Source: Actinomycetota bacterium
Lineage (GTDB): Bacteria > Actinomycetota > Acidimicrobiia > Acidimicrobiales > Microtrichaceae
Reading direction: 5' to 3'
Assembly (NCBI GenBank): GCA_016870275.1
Contig: VGBZ01000004.1
Location: 62,001-126,000, forward strand
DNA: 64,000 bases
The translations under genes and the position numbers were made by a program. Positions 17,328 to 57,185 of this stretch are shown here, one piece after another. Position 1 is the stretch's first letter, and the number at the start of each line of letters is the position of its first letter. The notes under the pieces were generated by a model. That model was given only the letters and a program-made list of their open reading frames with translations. It was not told the origin of the DNA and made no database searches.

Positions 17328-17963
17328 GTGTCGGGCAACCTCCTCTGGGGAGTCAAGGGCGGGAGTGGTGTCACCGTGGTGGCAGCGGGGCTGGCAGTGT
17401 CACTCGCTCGCCAACGGTCCGTCCTGCTCGCCGACCTCGCCGGCGACCAACCGGCAGTGTTCGGGCTGACCGACGACGACCGCCCCGGGATCTCTGAGTG
17501 GGCCACGGCCGCCGAGGTGCGCGAGGACTCACTGGCGCGACTGTGCCGGCCCGTTGCGCCCAACCTCGACCTGCTCACGCGCGGAGCTCTGAGCATCCCC
17601 GTGGACACCCCCGTTCGACTCGGCGCCGCCCTCGACAGTGACCATCGCAGCCTCGTCATCGACGCTGGCGTCCAACCGGCCGGGCTCGACCGGCAGGGGG
17701 CCTCGCTCACATCGGTGCTCGTGGTTCGCTCCTGCTACCTCGCTCTGCGGCGGGTGGTCCGTCTCGAGCACCCGCCCGACGTCGTGGTGCTCGTCGCCGA
17801 ACCGGGCCGATCCCTCGACCGCCGGGACGTCGAACGGGTCGTGGGGGCACCCGTGGTGGCGTCGGTCGAGGTCGACGCCTCAGTCGCCCGGAGGGTCGAT
17901 GCCGGCCTCCTCGCTCACCGGCTCCCGCCCACGCTCCAGCGGCTCGGCCGGAGATTCTCATGA
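17328..17963 (+). CDS. TadZ/CpaE/Ssd-like MinD-family protein of the tad pilus locus
   Basis: 211 residues. It opens with a deviant Walker A-like KGGSGVTVVAAGLAVSLAR and LLADLAGDQPAVFGL (the switch region), then RSLVIDAGVQ and a late VVVLVAEPGRSLD. This is the SIMIBI ATPase found at the start of tad loci, where it places the secretion machine; the mycobacterial counterpart is the septum-site protein Ssd. There is no receiver domain. GTG start at 17328. Its stop overlaps the TadA start by 4 nt (ATGA), so it opens the tad operon. Confidence 0.75.
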   Translation: MSGNLLWGVKGGSGVTVVAAGLAVSLARQRSVLLADLAGDQPAVFGLTDDDRPGISEWATAAEVREDSLARLCRPVAPNLDLLTRGALSIPVDTPVRLGAALDSDHRSLVIDAGVQPAGLDRQGASLTSVLVVRSCYLALRRVVRLEHPPDVVVLVAEPGRSLDRRDVERVVGAPVVASVEVDASVARRVDAGLLAHRLPPTLQRLGRRFS

Positions 17964-19120
17964 ACCAGCCCTCCGAAGCTCACCGAGCGTCCCTCCTTCC
18001 CGAGACCAGGGGTGACCCCGAACTCGCTCGGGCCGTCGGCCGGGTTCGGCGGCGCTTCGTCACCGGCCGCACCGCACCGCACGATCCGCTCGGAACGCTG
18101 CGCGAACTGCTCGCCGAGGAGGCTCCCCTGCTCGCTGCCGATCAGCTCGAGACGATCGCCTCGCGGCTCGTCGGTGATCTCGTCGGCCTGGGACACCTCG
18201 AGGCCATCCTCGACGATCCCGACGTGACCGACGTGCTGGTCAACGGTCCGGGGCCGGTGTGGATCGAACGATCCGGGCGGCTCGAGTGCACGTCGCTCGT
18301 ACTGGACCACCAGCAGATCAACCGGTCGATCGAGCGGCTCGTGCGACCGCTCGGCCGTCGGGCGGATCGGACCCATCCCATCGTGGACGCCCGGCTCGCC
18401 GACGGCACGCGCGTGGCAGTGGTGGTCGATCCCCTCGCAGTGGACGGCCCCGTCCTGGCGTTGCGCCGCCACCGCCGTGCCGTGGTCGGGTTCGAGGAAC
18501 TCGCCGGCCCTTTCGCTGATGCGCTCCGGGAGCGACTGCGAACCCGCAGGAACATCGTCGTCCACGGTGCGACCGGTTCCGGCAAGACGACCCTGCTCAA
18601 CGCTCTCGGATCGCTCGTGTCTCCCGACGAGCGGATCGTGACGATCGAGGATGTGGCAGAGTTGCGCCTCCCCGGCCGCCACGTCGTCCGTCTCGAGGCC
18701 CGTCCGGGAACCTCCGACGGTGTCGGTCGGGTCGCCATCAGGGAACTGGTCCGAGCTGCGCTCCGGCTCCGGCCGGACCGACTCGTGGTCGGCGAGGTGC
18801 GGGGGGCTGAGGCGCTCGACATGGTGTGGGCTCTCTCCACCGGCCACGACGGCGGGATGTCGACCGTGCACGCTTCGTCTCCGGTTGCGGCCATGCGTCG
18901 ACTCGCAACGCTCGCCCTGTCCGCTGGTGAGCCGCTCCCGTTGGCGGCGGTCGATGCGCAGGTTCGCTCAGCGGTCCATGTGCTCGTCGGTGTCGGTCGC
19001 CTCGACGGTGGCCGACGGGGGGTGGTGTCGATCCACGATGTCGATGACGCCGCAGCGTGTGACGCTCCACTCGACAGGGTCCTGCGTCCGGTCACGGTGG
19101 AACCGAGGTCGCTGCGGTGA
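17960..19120 (+). CDS. tadA: TadA/CpaF secretion ATPase
   Basis: 386 residues. It powers assembly of the pilus. Walker A VHGATGSGKTTLLNAL (residues about 197-212), Asp box ERIVTIEDVAELRLPG, Walker B region RPDRLVVGEVRGAEALDMV, His box TGHDGGMSTVHASSP. An N-terminal all-alpha region (1-75) precedes NVLVNGP-like VTDVLVNGPGPVWIER. Overlaps the neighbours on both sides by 4 nt. Confidence 0.93.
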   Translation: MNQPSEAHRASLLPETRGDPELARAVGRVRRRFVTGRTAPHDPLGTLRELLAEEAPLLAADQLETIASRLVGDLVGLGHLEAILDDPDVTDVLVNGPGPVWIERSGRLECTSLVLDHQQINRSIERLVRPLGRRADRTHPIVDARLADGTRVAVVVDPLAVDGPVLALRRHRRAVVGFEELAGPFADALRERLRTRRNIVVHGATGSGKTTLLNALGSLVSPDERIVTIEDVAELRLPGRHVVRLEARPGTSDGVGRVAIRELVRAALRLRPDRLVVGEVRGAEALDMVWALSTGHDGGMSTVHASSPVAAMRRLATLALSAGEPLPLAAVDAQVRSAVHVLVGVGRLDGGRRGVVSIHDVDDAAACDAPLDRVLRPVTVEPRSLR

Positions 19121-19806
19121 CGGCGCTCGTGTTCCTGTCGATCACGCTCGGCGGTGTCGGGGCGGTGGCGTTCCGGCGCACCAACCGTCGATCCCGCCAG
19201 CGGCGCTGGGAGGCTGCCGTGCTCGCACTCGGAGGCGAACTCGCCCGTTCGGTGCGTGGCGGCGCCACGCTGTCCGAGGCGTTCGCGGCCGCCAGCCTCG
19301 ATCACGGTGGTCCTCTGGCCGGTGAACTCGAGTCGATTCAGGCTCGACTGGCCCGCGGGGCGTCCCTCGACGAAGCCCTCTGCGCCGCTGGGTCGCCGGC
19401 GTCGGGTGCGTCGGTCCCGGGAGCGCCGGAACCCGGTGCAGCGTCAGACGGTCGTCGGTCGCTCGACGATCGACGTTCGTGGCGTGTGCTCATCAGGGCG
19501 TGTCGACTCGGTGAAGGCTCGACCGGCGATGCGGCGTCGGTCATCGACGGCGCCGTGGCGTCGATCGTCGACGACCTCGAGCTCGCCGACGAGACCGCCG
19601 CGCTCACCTCGCAGGCCCGCACGTCGGTCTGGGTACTCGCAGCGCTCCCCGTCGTCGGCGCCGCCGTTTTCGCTCTGGTCGACCCTCGGGTGGCCGGTGT
19701 CCTCACCACCACCGGTCCTGGGCGGGTCTGCTTGGTCGTCGGATTGTCGCTCGACGCAGCGGGACTCTGGAGCGCAGGCCGCATCGTGGATCGGTCGATG
19801 CGCTGA
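19117..19806 (+). CDS. tadB: TadB-like inner-membrane platform protein
   Basis: 229 residues with a short N-terminal hydrophobic segment, a cytoplasmic T2SSF domain (RRWEAAVLALGGELARSVRGGATLSEAFA, residues 28-60; RACRLGEGSTGDAASVIDG) and two C-terminal membrane segments. Actinobacterial TadB proteins are short like this one. It forms the membrane platform engaged by TadA. GTG start overlaps tadA by 4 nt; the end overlaps tadC by one base. Confidence 0.82.
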   Translation: MTALVFLSITLGGVGAVAFRRTNRRSRQRRWEAAVLALGGELARSVRGGATLSEAFAAASLDHGGPLAGELESIQARLARGASLDEALCAAGSPASGASVPGAPEPGAASDGRRSLDDRRSWRVLIRACRLGEGSTGDAASVIDGAVASIVDDLELADETAALTSQARTSVWVLAALPVVGAAVFALVDPRVAGVLTTTGPGRVCLVVGLSLDAAGLWSAGRIVDRSMR

Positions 19807-20612
19807 TGTCGACGGTGTTGGCCCTGATCGCCGGCATTGCCACCTGGCGGCTCCTCGTTCGTCGACCGTTTCCCTGGCGGGATCCGAGTTGTTGTTCTGA
19901 CGTGGTCGCTCTCGAGGCGATCGCCGGCGATGGTTCGGGCCGCCCGTCACCGCCACGCCTGAGCACTCCAACCGCATCGCTGTCGGGTCGCTTTGCTGCG
20001 CTCGACCCAAGGAAGTCGATCCGGGCCCCCAGCGCTCCGGGGAGCGACGATCACGCATCCTCTGTCGACCTGCTCGCCGTCACGATCGCAGCGGGATGGA
20101 CCATTCCCATGGCGGTCCAGTCGATCGGCGAGTCAGGCGACGGTGCGACCGCAACGGCGCTGAAGCGGGTGAGTGCTGCAGAACAGCGTGGTTCGGGCTT
20201 CCTCGATGCCCTCGACGAACTCGAGCGTTCGCTCGGGAGTCAGGGTCGCGACCTGCGGGTTCCGCTCGCAGCAGCGGTCAGCGCCGGTACTCCGGTCGGC
20301 CCGGCACTGCAACGTCTGGCTGACCAGCACCGACGCCGGCGGCGACGGCTCGTCGAGGCGCGAATCCGTCGACTTCCCGTGTTGTTGCTGTTGCCGTTGT
20401 GCGGCTTCGTCCTCCCGGCGTTCGTGGTGCTCACCCTCGTTCCGGTGGGCCTGGCGACTGTCGCCGAGTTGGATGTCGCCGATCTGAGCGTGTCCGGACC
20501 GGGCGGGCCCGATCCGAATGTGGACGGGCCGCTGGGCCAGCAGCCCGAAGCGGACCCGACCGTGATCACCGAGGACGTCCCACCCGTCGCCTCGATCGAA
20601 CCCCCCCGGTGA
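19806..20612 (+). CDS. tadC: TadC-like inner-membrane platform protein
   Basis: 268 residues. A hydrophobic N-terminus, a low-complexity linker (about 40-75), then a T2SSF domain: SVDLLAVTIAAGWTIPMAV, RVSAAEQRGSGFLDALDELE, AAAVSAGTPVGPALQRLADQ and an RRRRRLVEARIRRLPVL helix leading to two membrane spans. The C-terminal 45 residues are an acidic, proline-rich tail (DPNVDGPLGQQPEADP) of unknown role. Works with TadB. ATG overlaps the tadB stop (TGATG). Confidence 0.82.
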   Translation: MSTVLALIAGIATWRLLVRRPFPWRDPSCCSDVVALEAIAGDGSGRPSPPRLSTPTASLSGRFAALDPRKSIRAPSAPGSDDHASSVDLLAVTIAAGWTIPMAVQSIGESGDGATATALKRVSAAEQRGSGFLDALDELERSLGSQGRDLRVPLAAAVSAGTPVGPALQRLADQHRRRRRRLVEARIRRLPVLLLLPLCGFVLPAFVVLTLVPVGLATVAELDVADLSVSGPGGPDPNVDGPLGQQPEADPTVITEDVPPVASIEPPR

Positions 20613-20677
20613 GTTCCGACCCCCGGGCCGTGCGCTTCCCCTGTTCAGTCCCTCGACCAGCAAACCTTGGAGATCAC

Positions 20678-20986
20678 GTGAACCAGATGAGTCGTCGAGT
20701 CGTTCCGCCGCCCCGTTCCGTCGTCTCGGGGCCCTCGGGCGGTCGAGTTGTGTTCGATCCGTGCCGCCTCAGTCGGTGCCGGGCCGCTCTGGTACGCCTG
20801 CACGTTGCGTGCTGGGCGCCTCCGCCGGTGCGGGACCAGCGGGGTCAGGGGACCGTGGAGTACGCCATCGTCCTGATCGGTGCCGCAGCAGTCGCTCTGG
20901 CGTTGGTCGCCTGGGTGGCCCGCTCCGGCGCGATCGGCCGCCTCTTCGATGCGGTGATCGGCCGAGTGCTGAACTCGGCCGGGTGA
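20678..20986 (+). CDS. Flp/DUF4244-type pilin-like protein
   Basis: 102 residues. The mature region matches the actinobacterial Flp-like pilin (DUF4244): RDQRGQGTVEYAIVLIGAAA, with the conserved glutamate five residues after the expected cleavage site (G/TVEYA), a hydrophobic helix, and a short tail. The preceding 55 residues form an unusually long basic leader. GTG at 20678 follows TTGGAG. The last codons (from VIGRVLNSAG) lie in the first copy of the 30-bp tandem repeat, and the TGA is shared with the TadE start. Confidence 0.75.
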   Translation: MNQMSRRVVPPPRSVVSGPSGGRVVFDPCRLSRCRAALVRLHVACWAPPPVRDQRGQGTVEYAIVLIGAAAVALALVAWVARSGAIGRLFDAVIGRVLNSAG

Positions 20987-21080
20987 TGGGGCCGAGTGCT
21001 GAACTCGGCCGGGTGATGGGGCCGAGTGCTGAACTCGGCCGGGTGATGGGGCCGAGTGCTGAACTCGGCCGGGTGATGGG
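20961..21080. repeat. Four exact tandem copies of a 30-bp unit spanning the pilin stop and TadE start
   Basis: The unit starting GCCGAGTGCTGAACTCGGCC repeats at 20961, 20991, 21021 and 21051, with no mismatch, and a partial GCCG at 21081. Every unit contains GGCCGAGT-GCTGA-ACTCGGCC (8-bp hairpin) and GGGTGATGGG, which holds a TGA, a GTG and an ATG. Thirty bases is ten codons, so copy number can change without shifting the TadE frame: each copy adds ten residues (MGPSAELGRV) or offers another start. Confidence 0.95.
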
Positions 21081-21468
21081 GCCGGCGTGTCGATCCGGCC
21101 GTCGTCGAGGTGGCCTGCGGGGTCAGGCGAGCGTGGAGACGGCTCTGGTCCTGCCGATCGTGGTGTTGGTCGTGCTCGTGGTGTTGCAGGCCGTCCTGCT
21201 CGCTCGAGATCAGGTGCTCGTCGTGCATGCGGCACGGACTGCGGCCCGGGCGGTGGCGGTCGAGGGACAGCCTGCGGCGGCGTCCCGGGTCGTGGCGGCG
21301 CAGGGGTTCGGCAGTCGTGCCCGTACCTCGGTGGCGGGTCAGGTCCGACCCGGCGGGCTGGCACAGGTGGCTGTGGAACTCGACCCGGTGCGCGTACCGA
21401 TCATCGGCCGCAGCCTCGGGGGCCTGCGCCTCCGTGAGCGCTTCGCCGTGATCGTCGAGGGCCCGTAG
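20986..21468 (+). CDS. TadE-like pseudopilin
   Basis: Up to 160 residues from the first ATG (20986), which overlaps the pilin stop as TGATG. GTG/ATG pairs recur in frame at 21013/21016, 21043/21046 and 21073/21076, so the true start is unsure. After the repeat-encoded N-terminus comes RGQASVETALVLPIVVLVVL, the TadE-type cleavage site and hydrophobic helix with its glutamate, then LLARDQVLVVHAARTAARAVAVEG and a beta-rich tail. TadE proteins are minor pilins exported by the TadA machine. No strong Shine-Dalgarno precedes any candidate start; coupling to pilin translation is likely. Confidence 0.8.
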   Translation: MGPSAELGRVMGPSAELGRVMGPSAELGRVMGPACRSGRRRGGLRGQASVETALVLPIVVLVVLVVLQAVLLARDQVLVVHAARTAARAVAVEGQPAAASRVVAAQGFGSRARTSVAGQVRPGGLAQVAVELDPVRVPIIGRSLGGLRLRERFAVIVEGP

Positions 21469-21582
21469 AGCGCACCGTCGCAGTGCGTACCACTGGTTGC
21501 GTTCGCTGCGATGGGCGGAACACGTTCGGTTCGTTGAGGGTCGGGTGAGTGACGTCAGGGCAGCGACCACGGGGGAGCGAGG

Positions 21583-24006
21583 TCACGAGCGCTCGAGAGT
21601 GTGTTCGAGCAGGCGTCGAGCGGCGGCCTTGTCGAGCGGTTCGTTGCCGTTGCCGCACTTGGGCGATTGCACGCATGCCGGACACCCGGCGGCGCACGGG
21701 CACGACCGCAGCACCTCGAGGGTTGCTGCGAGGTGAAGGTCTGCTGCAGCGTGGGCCAGGTCAGCGATTCCGGAACCGCCGGGGTGGGCGTCGTGGATGC
21801 AGACCGTGGCGGCGTCGGTGTCGGGCAGGAAGGCGGTCGACACGCCGCCGACGTCCCACCGATCGCAGATCGCAATGACGGGGAGGATGCCGATGCCGGC
21901 GTGTTCTGCGGCGTGGAGCGCACCGGTGAGCTCGGCGGAACCCAGGCTCGCTGCGGCGAGCAACTCGTCGTCGTAGACGGTCCACACTGCCCGGGTCTGG
22001 AGAATCGACGGCGTGATGCCGTCGGTGGGGCCGAACTCCACCCGGTCGAGCACCTCGTGTGTGGTGGCGTCGCGTTCCTGGTAGCCGGTCACGACTGTCG
22101 TGACCTCGACAACGCCGAGGTGGTGAGGGGCGAGACCGACGTGTGCGGACCGTTCGACTGCGAGAATCCTGAGGTCGGTGGTGGATCGGGCCTGGGTGTA
22201 GGTGCGACCGGGGTCGGGTTGCACCAACACGGTCCGCGCCGCGTGTTCGATCCCGATGACCCGCCACGCCCGACCTTGGTGGAGGTAGACGGCCCCCGGG
22301 TGCGCCGTCGCCGCAATCCGTGCGTGATCGAGGGTGGCGATCGTCGTCGGGCCTCGCCGTCCGGACGGACCGGGCCCGGTGCCCGCGGTGCGGATGCGGT
22401 ACTCCCCTCGGCTGGCCGTGCGCAGTCCGATGGTTGGTGCGGGATCGCCCCGGCCGGTCCAGCGGATCGCCGGCGTCCCGTCGGCCCTCTGGCGCACGGT
22501 CGCCCGATCGGTGCGGACGAGTTCGCTCACGGCGTCGTCGAGTTCGGGACCCCAGAGGTCGCGGTCGGCGGGTTCGATCGGAGCTTCGGCGGCGGCGCAA
22601 CCGATCTGGGGGACCATGATCTCCGGGTTGGTGATGTTCACCACGGTCCGTTCCCGCGGTCGCCCGAAGAGGGTCTCGGGGTGACGAACGATCCACTGGT
22701 CGAGCTGGTCCTGGCCGGCGACCAGCACCGCCACCGATGGTTGGTGCTCCCGCCCGCTGCGGCCGACCTGCTGGTGGAATGACGCTGCGGTGCCCGGGTA
22801 CCCGCTCAACACGACAGCGTCGAGGCCGCCGATGTCGACGCCGAGTTCGAGCGCGCTCGTGGCGACGACCACCGAGAGCGAACCGTCGGCGAGCTGAGCC
22901 TCGACCTCGCGACGCTCCTCGGCGAGGTAGCCGGCCCGGTAGGCGCGGACACCGTCGGCCAGTTCACTCGGGAGCATCCGTCGGAGCTGTTCGGCGATCA
23001 GTTCGGTGCTTCGCCGGGATCGGCAGAACACGAGCGTGCGCAGACCGGAACGCACGAGTCGGCTGGCGACGAGGGTCGTCTCGGCGTGCAGAGACCATCG
23101 CACCGGCTCGTCGAGGTCGGCGGATTCCTCGAGAGCGGCCTCCGGGTTCCAGAACAGGATCGTGCGCCGACCGCGAGGCGCAGCGTCGTGGTCGACTGGC
23201 GTGACCGGCAACCCGCAGAGCGCCGTGGCGAGGTCGGCGGGATCACCGATCGTCGCTGAGCTGAACGCGAACTGCGGGTCCCCGCCATGACGTGCGGCGA
23301 GTCGTCGGAGCCGGCGCAGCACGTGGGCGGTCTGGCTTCCGAACACTCCCCGGAAGACGTGGAGTTCGTCGATGACGACGAGTTGGAGTCGGGAGAGGAA
23401 CCGACCCCAGCGGTCGTGGTCGGGGAGAACGCCCTGGTGCAGCATCTCCGGGTTGGTCACGATGACATCGGCGTGCGTGCGGACCCAGTGGCGTTCCTCC
23501 CGGCCGCAGTCGCCGTCGTAGGCGGCGACGGTCACGCCGGGGAGCCGCCAGGAGGCGAGCGAGCGGAGTTGGTCGCGGGCGAGCGCCTTGGTGGGGAAGA
23601 CCATGCAGACGCTCCCCCCGGCAGTGGCCACCTCGGCGGCGCGCAGTTGGTAGGCGAGCGACTTGCCCGAACCGGTACCGGTACTGAGGACCACCGACCG
23701 TCCGGAGCGGAGGACGTCGGCCGCCTCGACCTGGTGGGCCCAGAACGAGTCGTGGGGGACGTGCTGGCGAACGGCGTCGCTCGGCGGTGGATCCAGGGGT
23801 TCGGTGGTTCCGATGCGCGCCGGCTGTCGTTCCACATGGACGAGTCGGGCGTCCTCGGACCACTCCAGCACCAGGTCGTCGATGGTCACCCCCGGGTCGG
23901 ACCGATCCACGTGGTTCGGGGAGCGGTCGATGAACCCGTTCGGTCCGCCGGCTGTTCCCCCGATTGTGTCCCCGGCTGAGTCGGGGGAACGATCTCGGGC
24001 TGTCAT
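21583..24006 (-). CDS. DEAD/DEAH-box helicase, MrfA/YprA type with DUF1998-like zinc domain
   Basis: 807 residues. Helicase motifs: Q-like FWAHQVEAAD, I VLSTGTGSGKSLAYQ (residues about 93-108), Ia VFPTKALARDQ, II VIDELHVF (DELH), III FSSATIGDPADLA, IV LVFCRSRRSTELIA, V VVATSALELGVDIG, VI QQVGRSGRE. The C-terminal domain ends with a cysteine cluster CPCAAGCPACVQSPKCGNGN, which binds zinc. Bacillus MrfA in this family removes mitomycin lesions. The Mycobacterium homologue also lies beside the tad locus, as I recall (Rv3649 near Rv3654c-Rv3660c). It converges on the tad operon; a 114-base gap has no clear terminator. Confidence 0.92.
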   Translation of the reverse strand: MTARDRSPDSAGDTIGGTAGGPNGFIDRSPNHVDRSDPGVTIDDLVLEWSEDARLVHVERQPARIGTTEPLDPPPSDAVRQHVPHDSFWAHQVEAADVLRSGRSVVLSTGTGSGKSLAYQLRAAEVATAGGSVCMVFPTKALARDQLRSLASWRLPGVTVAAYDGDCGREERHWVRTHADVIVTNPEMLHQGVLPDHDRWGRFLSRLQLVVIDELHVFRGVFGSQTAHVLRRLRRLAARHGGDPQFAFSSATIGDPADLATALCGLPVTPVDHDAAPRGRRTILFWNPEAALEESADLDEPVRWSLHAETTLVASRLVRSGLRTLVFCRSRRSTELIAEQLRRMLPSELADGVRAYRAGYLAEERREVEAQLADGSLSVVVATSALELGVDIGGLDAVVLSGYPGTAASFHQQVGRSGREHQPSVAVLVAGQDQLDQWIVRHPETLFGRPRERTVVNITNPEIMVPQIGCAAAEAPIEPADRDLWGPELDDAVSELVRTDRATVRQRADGTPAIRWTGRGDPAPTIGLRTASRGEYRIRTAGTGPGPSGRRGPTTIATLDHARIAATAHPGAVYLHQGRAWRVIGIEHAARTVLVQPDPGRTYTQARSTTDLRILAVERSAHVGLAPHHLGVVEVTTVVTGYQERDATTHEVLDRVEFGPTDGITPSILQTRAVWTVYDDELLAAASLGSAELTGALHAAEHAGIGILPVIAICDRWDVGGVSTAFLPDTDAATVCIHDAHPGGSGIADLAHAAADLHLAATLEVLRSCPCAAGCPACVQSPKCGNGNEPLDKAAARRLLEHTLERS

Positions 24007-32336: not shown

Positions 32337-35147
32337 GTGAGCAAGCCCCTCGTCATCGTCGAGTCGCCGGCCAAGGCCCGGACGATCGCCCGCTTCCTGG
32401 GCGACGACTACGTGGTCGAGTCGTCCATCGGGCACATCCGTGATCTGCCCTCCGGCATGGCCGACATGCCCAAGAACCTGAAGGACCGGAAGTGGGAGAT
32501 CGTCGGTGTGGACACCGAGAACCACTTCAAGCCCGTCTACATCGTCTCGCCCAACAAGAAGGAGCACGTCCGTGAGCTGAAGGCGCTGGTGGCCGAGGCC
32601 GACGAGCTCTACCTGGCGACGGACGAGGATCGTGAGGGCGAGGCCATTGCGTGGCACCTGCTCGAGGTCCTCAACCCGCAGGTCCCGGTCCGCCGGATGG
32701 TCTTCCACGAGATCACGCCCGAGGCCATCCAGCATGCGATCGCCAATCCCCGGGATCTCGACCGGCGGCTGGTGGACGCCCAAGAGGGTCGGCGGATCCT
32801 CGATCGGCTGGTCGGCTACGGCGTGTCGCCGGTCCTGTGGCGCCGGATCGACAAGGCGAAGTCGGCCGGCCGGGTGCAGTCGGTGGCCACCCGGATGGTG
32901 GTCGAGCGGGAGCGGGAACGGATGCGCTTCCGTTCCGCAACCTGGTGGGACCTGCGGGCCACGTTCCACCACACGGCGGCCGATCGTGACCAGACACCCT
33001 TTCCGGCCAGGCTCGTCGAGCTCGACGGCTCCCGTCTGGCGACGGGCAACGACTTCGACCAGTCCGGCGCACTCAACAAGGACGGCGTCGTTCTGCTCGA
33101 CGCCACGGCCGCAGAGGATCTCCGGGCAGCGCTGCACGACCGACCGGTCGCAGTCGACTCCGTCGAACGCAAGCCGTACACCCGGCGTCCGGCACCGCCG
33201 TTCATGACCTCGACGCTCCAGCAGGAGGCCGGTCGCAAGCTGCGCATGTCGTCCTCGATGTGCATGTCGACGGCCCAGCGGCTGTACGAGAACGGGTTCA
33301 TCACCTACATGCGGACCGACTCGACCACGCTGTCGGACACGGCGCTCGACGCGGCCCGCACCCAGATCCGTGAGCTCTACGGCGACTCGTACCTGCCCGA
33401 TGCACCTCGTCGGTATGCGAGCAAGTCCAAGAACGCGCAGGAGGCCCACGAGGCGATCCGTCCCGCCGGCGACCGGTTCCGCACGCCGGATCAGGTGCGC
33501 TCGTCGCTGCAGGACGCCGAGTTCAGGCTGTACGAGCTGATCTGGGCCCGCACGGTGGCCAGTCAGATGAACGACGCCCGCGGCGAGTCGGTGCAGGTAC
33601 GGCTGGCCGCCACCACGGATCAGGGCCGTACGGCGACGTTCGCCGCATCCGGCCGAACGATCACCTTCCCCGGGTTCCTGCGGGCCTACGTGGAGGGGTC
33701 CGACGATCCCGACGCCGCGCTCGACGATCGCGAGACGATCCTGCCCGACATGGACGCCGGCGAGGCCATGTCGGTCGACGCCATGGATGCCGTCGACCAT
33801 CAGACCCAGCCGCCCCCTCGCTACACCGAGGCCTCGCTCGTCAAGCGCATGGAGGAGCTCGGCATCGGTCGCCCCTCCACCTACGCGTCGATCATCTCGA
33901 CCGTCGCCGATCGCGGCTACGTCTGGAAGCAGGGGACCGCCCTGGTGCCGAGCTGGATGGCGTTCGCCGTGGTGGCGCTGCTCGAGCAGTACTTCCCCCA
34001 CCTCGTCGACTACGAGTTCACCGCCCGGATGGAGGAGGAGCTCGACGACATCGCGTCGGGGTCGGCCGATCTCGAGCCGTGGCTCCGTGGGTTCTACTTC
34101 GGCCGCGACGATGCGCCGCCCGACAGTTCCGACGCCGGACTCCGCCGGATGATCGACGGCCGGATCGATGAGATCGACGCCCGCGCCATCAACTCCATCC
34201 CACTCGGCGCCGACAGCGACGGCGTGCCCATCGTGGTCCGGGTCGGGCGGTACGGGCCCTACCTGCAGCGCGGCGATGGCGACGACGTCGAGCGGGTGTC
34301 CATCCCCGAGGAAATCCCGCCCGACGAGCTCACCCCCGAGCGCGCCGTCGAGCTGCTCGAGGCTCCCTCGGGTGACCGTGATCTTGGGGAGCACCCCGAG
34401 AGTGGTCTGCAGGTTCTCGTGAGGAACGGCCGGTACGGCCCCTACGTGCAGGTGGGCGAGTTCGACGACGCGTCCGGGACCAAGCCGCGCACGGCGTCGT
34501 TGTTCCGGTCCATGGATCCCGCCACCGTCACGCTCGAGCAGGTGCTACCGCTCCTCGCACTCCCCCGTGAGGTGGGTGCGGATCCGACCGACGGCGTGGT
34601 GATCACCACCCAGAACGGCCGCTACGGCCCGTACCTGAAGAAGGGCACGGACTCGAGGTCGCTCGAGACCGAGGAGCAGATCCTCACCCTGACGCTCGAC
34701 GAGGCGCTCCGGATCCTGGCCGAGCCCAAGCGTCGCCGGGGCCAGCGGGCGGCGCCGCCGCTCAAGGAGCTCGGCGCCGATCCCGACTCCGAGAAGCCCA
34801 TCGTGGTCAAGGACGGGCGGTTCGGCCCGTACGTCACCGACGGCGAGACCAACGCGAGCCTGCGCAAGGCCGACTCGGTTGAGACGATCACCCTGGACCG
34901 GGCACTCGAACTGCTCGCCGAGCGCCGGGCCAACGGGCCGAGCAAGAAGAAGTCCGCTGCCAAGAAGAAGTCCGCTGCCAAGAAGAAGGCGGCAGCAAAG
35001 AAGAAGGCGCCCGCCAAGAAGAAGGCGCCCGCCAAGAAGAAAGCGGCAACCAAGAAGAAGGCGACAGCGAAGAAGAAGGCCTCAGCCGGTGCGCCTCCCC
35101 CGACCGACGGGTCAGCACCTCAGCCAGCACCGGCCGACGGTGGGTGA
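32337..35147 (+). CDS. topA: DNA topoisomerase I
   Basis: 936 residues. TOPRIM motifs IVESPAKARTIARFLG and ATDEDREGEAIAWHLLE bind the Mg ions. The active-site tyrosine is Tyr324 in NGFITYMRTDSTTLS. C-terminal repeat domains recur as NGRYGPYVQVG, NGRYGPYLKKG and DGRFGPYVTDG, replacing the zinc fingers of E. coli TopA. The last 60 residues form a lysine/alanine tail of KKKSAAKKK / KKKAPAKKK repeats (bases about 34943-35088) as in other actinobacterial TopA proteins, where it aids processivity. It relaxes negative supercoils. GTG at 32337. Confidence 0.97.
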   Translation: MSKPLVIVESPAKARTIARFLGDDYVVESSIGHIRDLPSGMADMPKNLKDRKWEIVGVDTENHFKPVYIVSPNKKEHVRELKALVAEADELYLATDEDREGEAIAWHLLEVLNPQVPVRRMVFHEITPEAIQHAIANPRDLDRRLVDAQEGRRILDRLVGYGVSPVLWRRIDKAKSAGRVQSVATRMVVERERERMRFRSATWWDLRATFHHTAADRDQTPFPARLVELDGSRLATGNDFDQSGALNKDGVVLLDATAAEDLRAALHDRPVAVDSVERKPYTRRPAPPFMTSTLQQEAGRKLRMSSSMCMSTAQRLYENGFITYMRTDSTTLSDTALDAARTQIRELYGDSYLPDAPRRYASKSKNAQEAHEAIRPAGDRFRTPDQVRSSLQDAEFRLYELIWARTVASQMNDARGESVQVRLAATTDQGRTATFAASGRTITFPGFLRAYVEGSDDPDAALDDRETILPDMDAGEAMSVDAMDAVDHQTQPPPRYTEASLVKRMEELGIGRPSTYASIISTVADRGYVWKQGTALVPSWMAFAVVALLEQYFPHLVDYEFTARMEEELDDIASGSADLEPWLRGFYFGRDDAPPDSSDAGLRRMIDGRIDEIDARAINSIPLGADSDGVPIVVRVGRYGPYLQRGDGDDVERVSIPEEIPPDELTPERAVELLEAPSGDRDLGEHPESGLQVLVRNGRYGPYVQVGEFDDASGTKPRTASLFRSMDPATVTLEQVLPLLALPREVGADPTDGVVITTQNGRYGPYLKKGTDSRSLETEEQILTLTLDEALRILAEPKRRRGQRAAPPLKELGADPDSEKPIVVKDGRFGPYVTDGETNASLRKADSVETITLDRALELLAERRANGPSKKKSAAKKKSAAKKKAAAKKKAPAKKKAPAKKKAATKKKATAKKKASAGAPPPTDGSAPQPAPADGG

Positions 35148-56760: not shown

Positions 56761-56916
56761 GGCACCGTGGTGCTGGTTGTGGTGGGCACCGTGGTGCTGG
56801 TTGTGGTGGGCACCGTGGTGCTGGTCGTCGTGGTGGGCAACGTGGTGCTGGTCGTCGTGGTGGGCAACGTGGTGCTGGTCGTCGTGGTGGGCACGGTGGT
56901 GCTGGTCGTGGTGGTG
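56761..56916. repeat. Tandem 24/27-bp repeats encoding the Thr-rich stalk
   Basis: Two 24-bp units (56761-56808) and four 27-bp units (56809-56916) based on GGCACCGTGGTGCTGGT, complement-coding TTSTTVPT and TTTSTTLPT blocks. All unit lengths are multiples of three. Such stalks lift ligand-binding domains off the cell wall and vary in length. Confidence 0.9.
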
Positions 56917-57185
56917 GTCGTCGTGGTCGGGCAGTCCGGCGGCAGGATCTTCGACAGCGAGGCGGTTGCGGTACCGGTGCGGACCGTGCCGTCACGTTCG
57001 ATGGTCGTTCCGGTACCTGGGACGTCGATGAATCCGGGCACCGGCGTACCATCGGGCCCGCGCACGGTGAGCAACCATTGCTTCACGGTGGTCGGATCGA
57101 CGTTGAGCAGCGTTGCGGCGTCCCACGTGACGGCCGGATCGGTCCGGCAGTAGGACGGGCTGGGGTCGACCTGAAGCTTCGCCGT

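Follow-up and report, generated by a model that had tools for sequence, protein, structure and literature searches.

A 30-bp tandem array across the pilin-tadE junction of a tad operon looks like tolerated repeat growth

The tad operon and its repeat array

The window, by which we mean the whole stretch of 64,000 nucleotides analysed, carries a Tad/Flp locus in which genes for a TadZ/CpaE-like protein, TadA, TadB, TadC, a DUF4244 Flp-type pilin and TadE, all recognised with Pfam, follow one another in this order, with a DEAD-box helicase gene facing them on the other strand (Table 1). A 30-bp unit, GGCCGAGTGCTGAACTCGGCCGGGTGATGG, stands here four times, exactly and head-to-tail, at 20960-21079 of the forward strand, across the pilin stop and the TadE start. 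The four exact copies had been described in a sequence-only reading of the locus, which placed them one base late, at 20961-21080, and they are borne out by the sequence and by TRF (period 30, 4.4 copies, 98% match), whose score of 250 is the highest in the window.

Table 1 Features of the tad operon and of the repeat array (positions in the window; a slash marks the predicted cleavage site)
Feature	Position	Strand	Basis or remark
TadZ/CpaE-like	17328-17963	+	Pfam
TadA ATPase	17960-19120	+	Pfam
TadB (T2SSF)	19117-19806	+	Pfam
TadC (T2SSF)	19806-20612	+	Pfam
Flp-type pilin (DUF4244, PF14029)	20678-20986	+	Pfam E 3e-8
Repeat copy 1	20960-20989	+	final 8 codons of the pilin gene (GRVLNSAG) and its stop TGA 20984-20986; TadE starts GTG 20983/ATG 20986 overlap this stop
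TadE (PF07811)	20986-21468	+	Pfam E 3e-9; long form from ATG 20986, 160 aa
TadE long-form leader	20986-21123	+	46 aa to the G of G/QASVE; holds all repeat-encoded residues; cleavage predicted
Repeat copy 2, exact	20990-21019	+	TadE-frame GTG 21013/ATG 21016; pilin-frame mini-ORF GTG 20996 to TGA 21016 (read from sequence)
Repeat copy 3, exact	21020-21049	+	TadE-frame GTG 21043/ATG 21046
Repeat copy 4, exact	21050-21079	+	TadE-frame GTG 21073/ATG 21076; from here the leader is as long as with a single copy
Partial fifth copy, 5 bp (GGCCG)	21080-21084	+	

The pilin frame terminates at the TGA inside copy 1, and the TGAs of copies 2-4 share this frame but are never reached from the pilin. Both starts of copy 1, the GTG (-4 nt) and the ATG (-1 nt), are in frame with TadE and overlap the pilin stop, and the resulting GTGA (20983-20986), an NTGA stop/start overlap, is present in each copy. 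The TadE frame is open across all copies and reads MGPSAELGRV three times, followed by MGPACRSGRRRGGLRG/QASVE. The earlier description of every copy as holding a hairpin, a pilin-frame TGA and a TadE-frame GTG/ATG pair agrees with the sequence, as does its point that TadE stays in frame when the copy number changes and gains ten residues (MGPSAELGRV) or a start with each copy. The true pilin start is uncertain, and an alternative GTG at 20828 would give the short leader VRDQRG/QGTVEYA. Just past copy 4, in the TadE start region (21080-21100), there is a further inverted repeat, GGCCGG-CGTGTCGAT-CCGGCC.

The Pfam TadE match begins exactly at GQASVE, downstream of the repeat, and the repeats therefore encode leader only. 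Flp prepilins are cut by TadV after the G of G/XXXXEY (PMC4322843), and TadV is required for the maturation of TadE and TadF, according to the title of Tomich 2006, cited in the same article. In actinobacteria the prepilin peptidase gene is located outside the tad locus (PMC4322843). A profile search of this draft genome for Peptidase_A24 (PF01478) gave no match at E 0.001, which contrasts with the complete-looking tad operon; the same-genus genome G005 gave no PF01478 match either, and a same-genus PilD homologue used as query matched neither of the two. Their completeness is 96-98% and the genome under study is a draft, so that the absence of the peptidase is not final. Among the other same-genus genomes, G001 has a prepilin peptidase gene next to a PilT-like one, G004 has one too, a more distant one occurs in G002, and the search of G003 (66% complete) gave no match. 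Because no prepilin peptidase was found in the genome, cleavage of the TadE leader at G/QASVE is predicted from the motif and from what is known of the family.

The junction in related genomes

All five same-genus species compared have one copy at the junction, and the DNA alignment with same-genus species is interrupted from the pilin stop to a point inside TadE that lies just past the array. The survey covered 171 distinct pilin junctions, most of them in genomes of the same order, and the TadE motif was recognised at 163. TadE lies in the -4 nt overlap frame at 126 of these 163 junctions, with ATGA, GTGA or TTGA at 88, and on these sequences the overlapping stop/start (NTGA, -4 nt) is the usual pilin-TadE junction across the order, which probably couples the translation of TadE to that of the pilin. 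Counted from the overlap, the TadE leader has 4-46 codons (median 13) at the surveyed junctions, and the long-form leader of the present case (46-47 residues) stands at the top of this range. Judging from the survey, the leader stretch is freely variable between species and the overlap is the usual state.

Exact arrays that cover the pilin stop occur at 3 of the 171 junctions, namely the one described here, L040 (15 bp x2.8; genome G024, UFOp-RH-14apr17-525) and L080 (18 bp x2.2; genome G410). The latter two resemble our array in lying at the same pilin-TadE junction, in having a period that is a multiple of 3 and in holding a GTGA in each copy, but differ from it in their unrelated units, lower copy numbers and independent origin. 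Their units showed one weak hairpin (5-bp stem, 2-nt loop), and in L040 none was noticed. The number of junction arrays expected is 0.29 from the array coverage in the flanks, or 0.57 from the coverage of this genome itself, and with our own case left out the two observed arrays correspond to P values of 0.04 or 0.11; the enrichment of arrays at the pilin-TadE junction is thus weak and suggestive only. Both arrays fit a general rule by which only in-frame duplications that restore the overlap would survive at the junction.

The hairpin and the other arrays of the genome

Each unit contains the perfect hairpin GGCCGAGT-GCTGA-ACTCGGCC, with a stem of 8 bp (9 bp in copy 1) and a DNA fold of -12.1 kcal/mol (z -4.7); the RNA fold of the whole array has z -4.65. 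The stems begin right after each of the earlier TadE starts. At the junctions of the five same-genus species perfect stems are at most 4-6 bp long and the perfect 8-bp hairpin is absent, although one of these species, L052, has a more stable overall fold. We rejected a conserved regulatory hairpin, as it is not retained in these species, and the proposal of the sequence-only reading that the hairpin regulates TadE initiation is for the same reason not supported; the hairpin arises from this species' codon choice for GRVLNSAG. A scan of 19500-22500 against Rfam gave no match up to E 1, and the region therefore holds no known RNA element.

The core 21-mer of the array occurs four times in the whole 3.2-Mb draft genome, always within the array, and the unit, which is the pilin gene's own end, is found at no other place; a mobile or dispersed repeat was rejected, the unit being confined to one locus. 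A 464-kb sample of the same genome holds 34 exact arrays, among which the junction array is the second longest, and arrays as such are therefore not rare in this genome; the period is divisible by 3 in 31 of them. An origin of the array by chance is excluded, and the exactness of its copies implies that it arose recently.

The three longest arrays of the sample, the junction array included, all have hairpin-bearing units (random same-length units matching: 0.03, 0.01 and 0.05), which would fit hairpin-assisted slippage, the link being post hoc, as this test of hairpins against array length was chosen after the data had been seen.

Two other long in-frame exact arrays of this genome, at L240:14754-14880 and L242:919-1025 (24 bp x5.3 and x4.5), have units with a perfect hairpin of 6-7 bp each. 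Further tandem arrays lie in the window at 56761-56929 and 34943-35080, with 27-bp and 18-bp units.

Origin of the array and comparison with known repeats

We consider it probable that the array is a recent, species-specific and locally born slippage expansion of the pilin-tadE junction, tolerated and near-neutral, and it looks like repeat growth of this kind, not like a new switch. In the ancestor the pilin stop and the tadE start would have overlapped (NTGA), TadE probably being made by ribosomes that had just finished the pilin. Strand slippage, for which the perfect DNA hairpin at the 3' end of the pilin gene is a plausible aid, would have raised the 30-bp block with the overlap from a single copy to four. 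Every copy would restore stop and start in the correct frames and leave the pilin unchanged, and since the stop/start is regenerated each time, each duplication would itself mend the damage that it might have done. According to a recent review, coupling works best at -4 to +3 nt and fades by 30-40 nt, and where two starts follow a stop the ribosomes take the nearer one, as phage data show (PMC12548453). TadE could be initiated in copy 1 as before, in coupling with the pilin stop, and the remaining copies would be read through as leader; each would add ten residues to the TadE leader only, upstream of the prepilin-type site, where they would be removed. The array would be near-neutral because the pilin is unchanged, the copy-1 TadE start is kept and the extra residues fall only in a leader of variable length.

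It is unlikely that TadE instead keeps to its ancestral start, now in copy 4, with copies 1-3 as a 90-nt spacer that weakens or abolishes coupling. The 16-residue leader that such a start would give is near the median of the relatives, and the position of the hairpin stems just past each earlier start would suit it, but three nearer in-frame starts with identical upstream sequence precede copy 4, the nearest start wins in the phage data (PMC12548453), and a pure spacer would not need a unit length that is a multiple of three. Less likely again is a tuning by copy number, in which additional hairpins and starts would alter the ribosomes reinitiating on tadE and slippage would shift the pilin:TadE ratio in subpopulations. 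Published correlations of structure downstream of a stop with weaker coupling (PMC12548453), and of M. tuberculosis fpg1 expression with the length of the upstream repeat (PMC2734929), speak for it, together with the strongly structured RNA of our array and the recurrence of arrays at the junction (3/171). Against this stand the absence of the perfect hairpin from the same-genus species and from the other two junction arrays, as well as the weak enrichment when our own case is left out (2 vs 0.29-0.57 expected, P 0.04-0.11). The tuned pilin:TadE ratio of the sequence-only reading is unsupported. If coupling works as published, the start nearest the pilin stop would be used and the later copies would be only leader. 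We are more doubtful still of a frame-preserving contingency element, in which slippage would add and remove hairpin-plus-start modules at the coupled overlap and tune TadE per pilin without switching either gene off, the junction being a recurrent array hotspot. Should output depend on copy number, this would amount to graded, non-frameshifting variation in a pilus operon.

A relay of ribosomes seems very improbable. In the pilin frame the later copies read GTG CTG AAC TCG GCC GGG TGA, whose stop overlaps the GTG/ATG that follows, and this mini-ORF (V-L-N-S-A-G-stop) could hand the ribosome on to the next TadE start, as proposed for the ORFs of mycobacterial interspersed repetitive units (MIRUs; PMC12548453). 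It would be open only to ribosomes that had failed to use the nearer TadE start, we see no ribosome-binding site, and the unit is confined to a single locus. We give least credence to an assembly artefact that hides a different copy number: the genome is a draft of 137 contigs and the named same-genus relatives are metagenome-assembled genomes, but the array (125 bp) lies inside one continuous 140-kb contig, two other genomes have similar arrays at this junction, and short-read assemblers usually collapse arrays and seldom invent copies.

The array has the head-to-tail, near-exact copies of a VNTR, with four exact copies in the one genome of the species analysed; the other species of the genus have one copy. 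Like in-ORF variable repeats and simple-sequence contingency loci, the array is a slippage-prone repeat near the start codon of a surface-structure gene; unlike them, it cannot switch a frame on and off, its unit length being a multiple of 3. MIRUs, for example that of senX3-regX3, have coding ends that overlap the neighbouring stop and start codons at -4 nt spacing and are thought to leave host gene expression largely intact (PMC12548453); they measure 40-100 bp and are scattered, with 41 in H37Rv (PMC2734929). Our array is also placed at an overlapping stop/start junction (NTGA), but its unit is 30 bp, comes from the pilin gene itself and is confined to one locus, whereas MIRUs are longer and dispersed, and by its sequence it is not a MIRU, though similar in working. 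In the M. tuberculosis complex, the rnc-fpg1 repeats (ETR-F/VNTR3239) form a direct-repeat array by which a once tight junction was opened and which runs up to the start codon of the downstream gene, with a copy number that varies and a length that correlates with expression (PMC2734929). Both are direct-repeat arrays at a tight gene junction. The rnc-fpg1 repeats are intergenic, from 40 bp past the rnc stop, whereas here every copy holds a stop and a start and the array could be translated as TadE leader. The claim of the earlier reading that no such arrangement had been described stands for tad loci, for which our literature search on tandem repeats at stop/start overlaps found no case, and fails more broadly, as relatives carry two such arrays at this junction and repeats have been described from tight or coupled gene junctions of mycobacteria (PMC12548453, PMC2734929).

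Tolerated expansion would make this locus a model for how a coupled junction absorbs duplications: a unit with a length divisible by three that includes the stop/start overlap would keep both genes readable, at the cost of growth in a leader that is disposable. Taken with the two independent arrays, it allows a simple test of the effect of copy number on reinitiation at an NTGA overlap.

A further repeat expansion between the two genes was seen at L062 (G260:C28, reverse strand), where overlapping 15-bp arrays, in two runs of about 2.2-2.3 exact copies, sit between a pilin TAG stop and TadE, which are not coupled.
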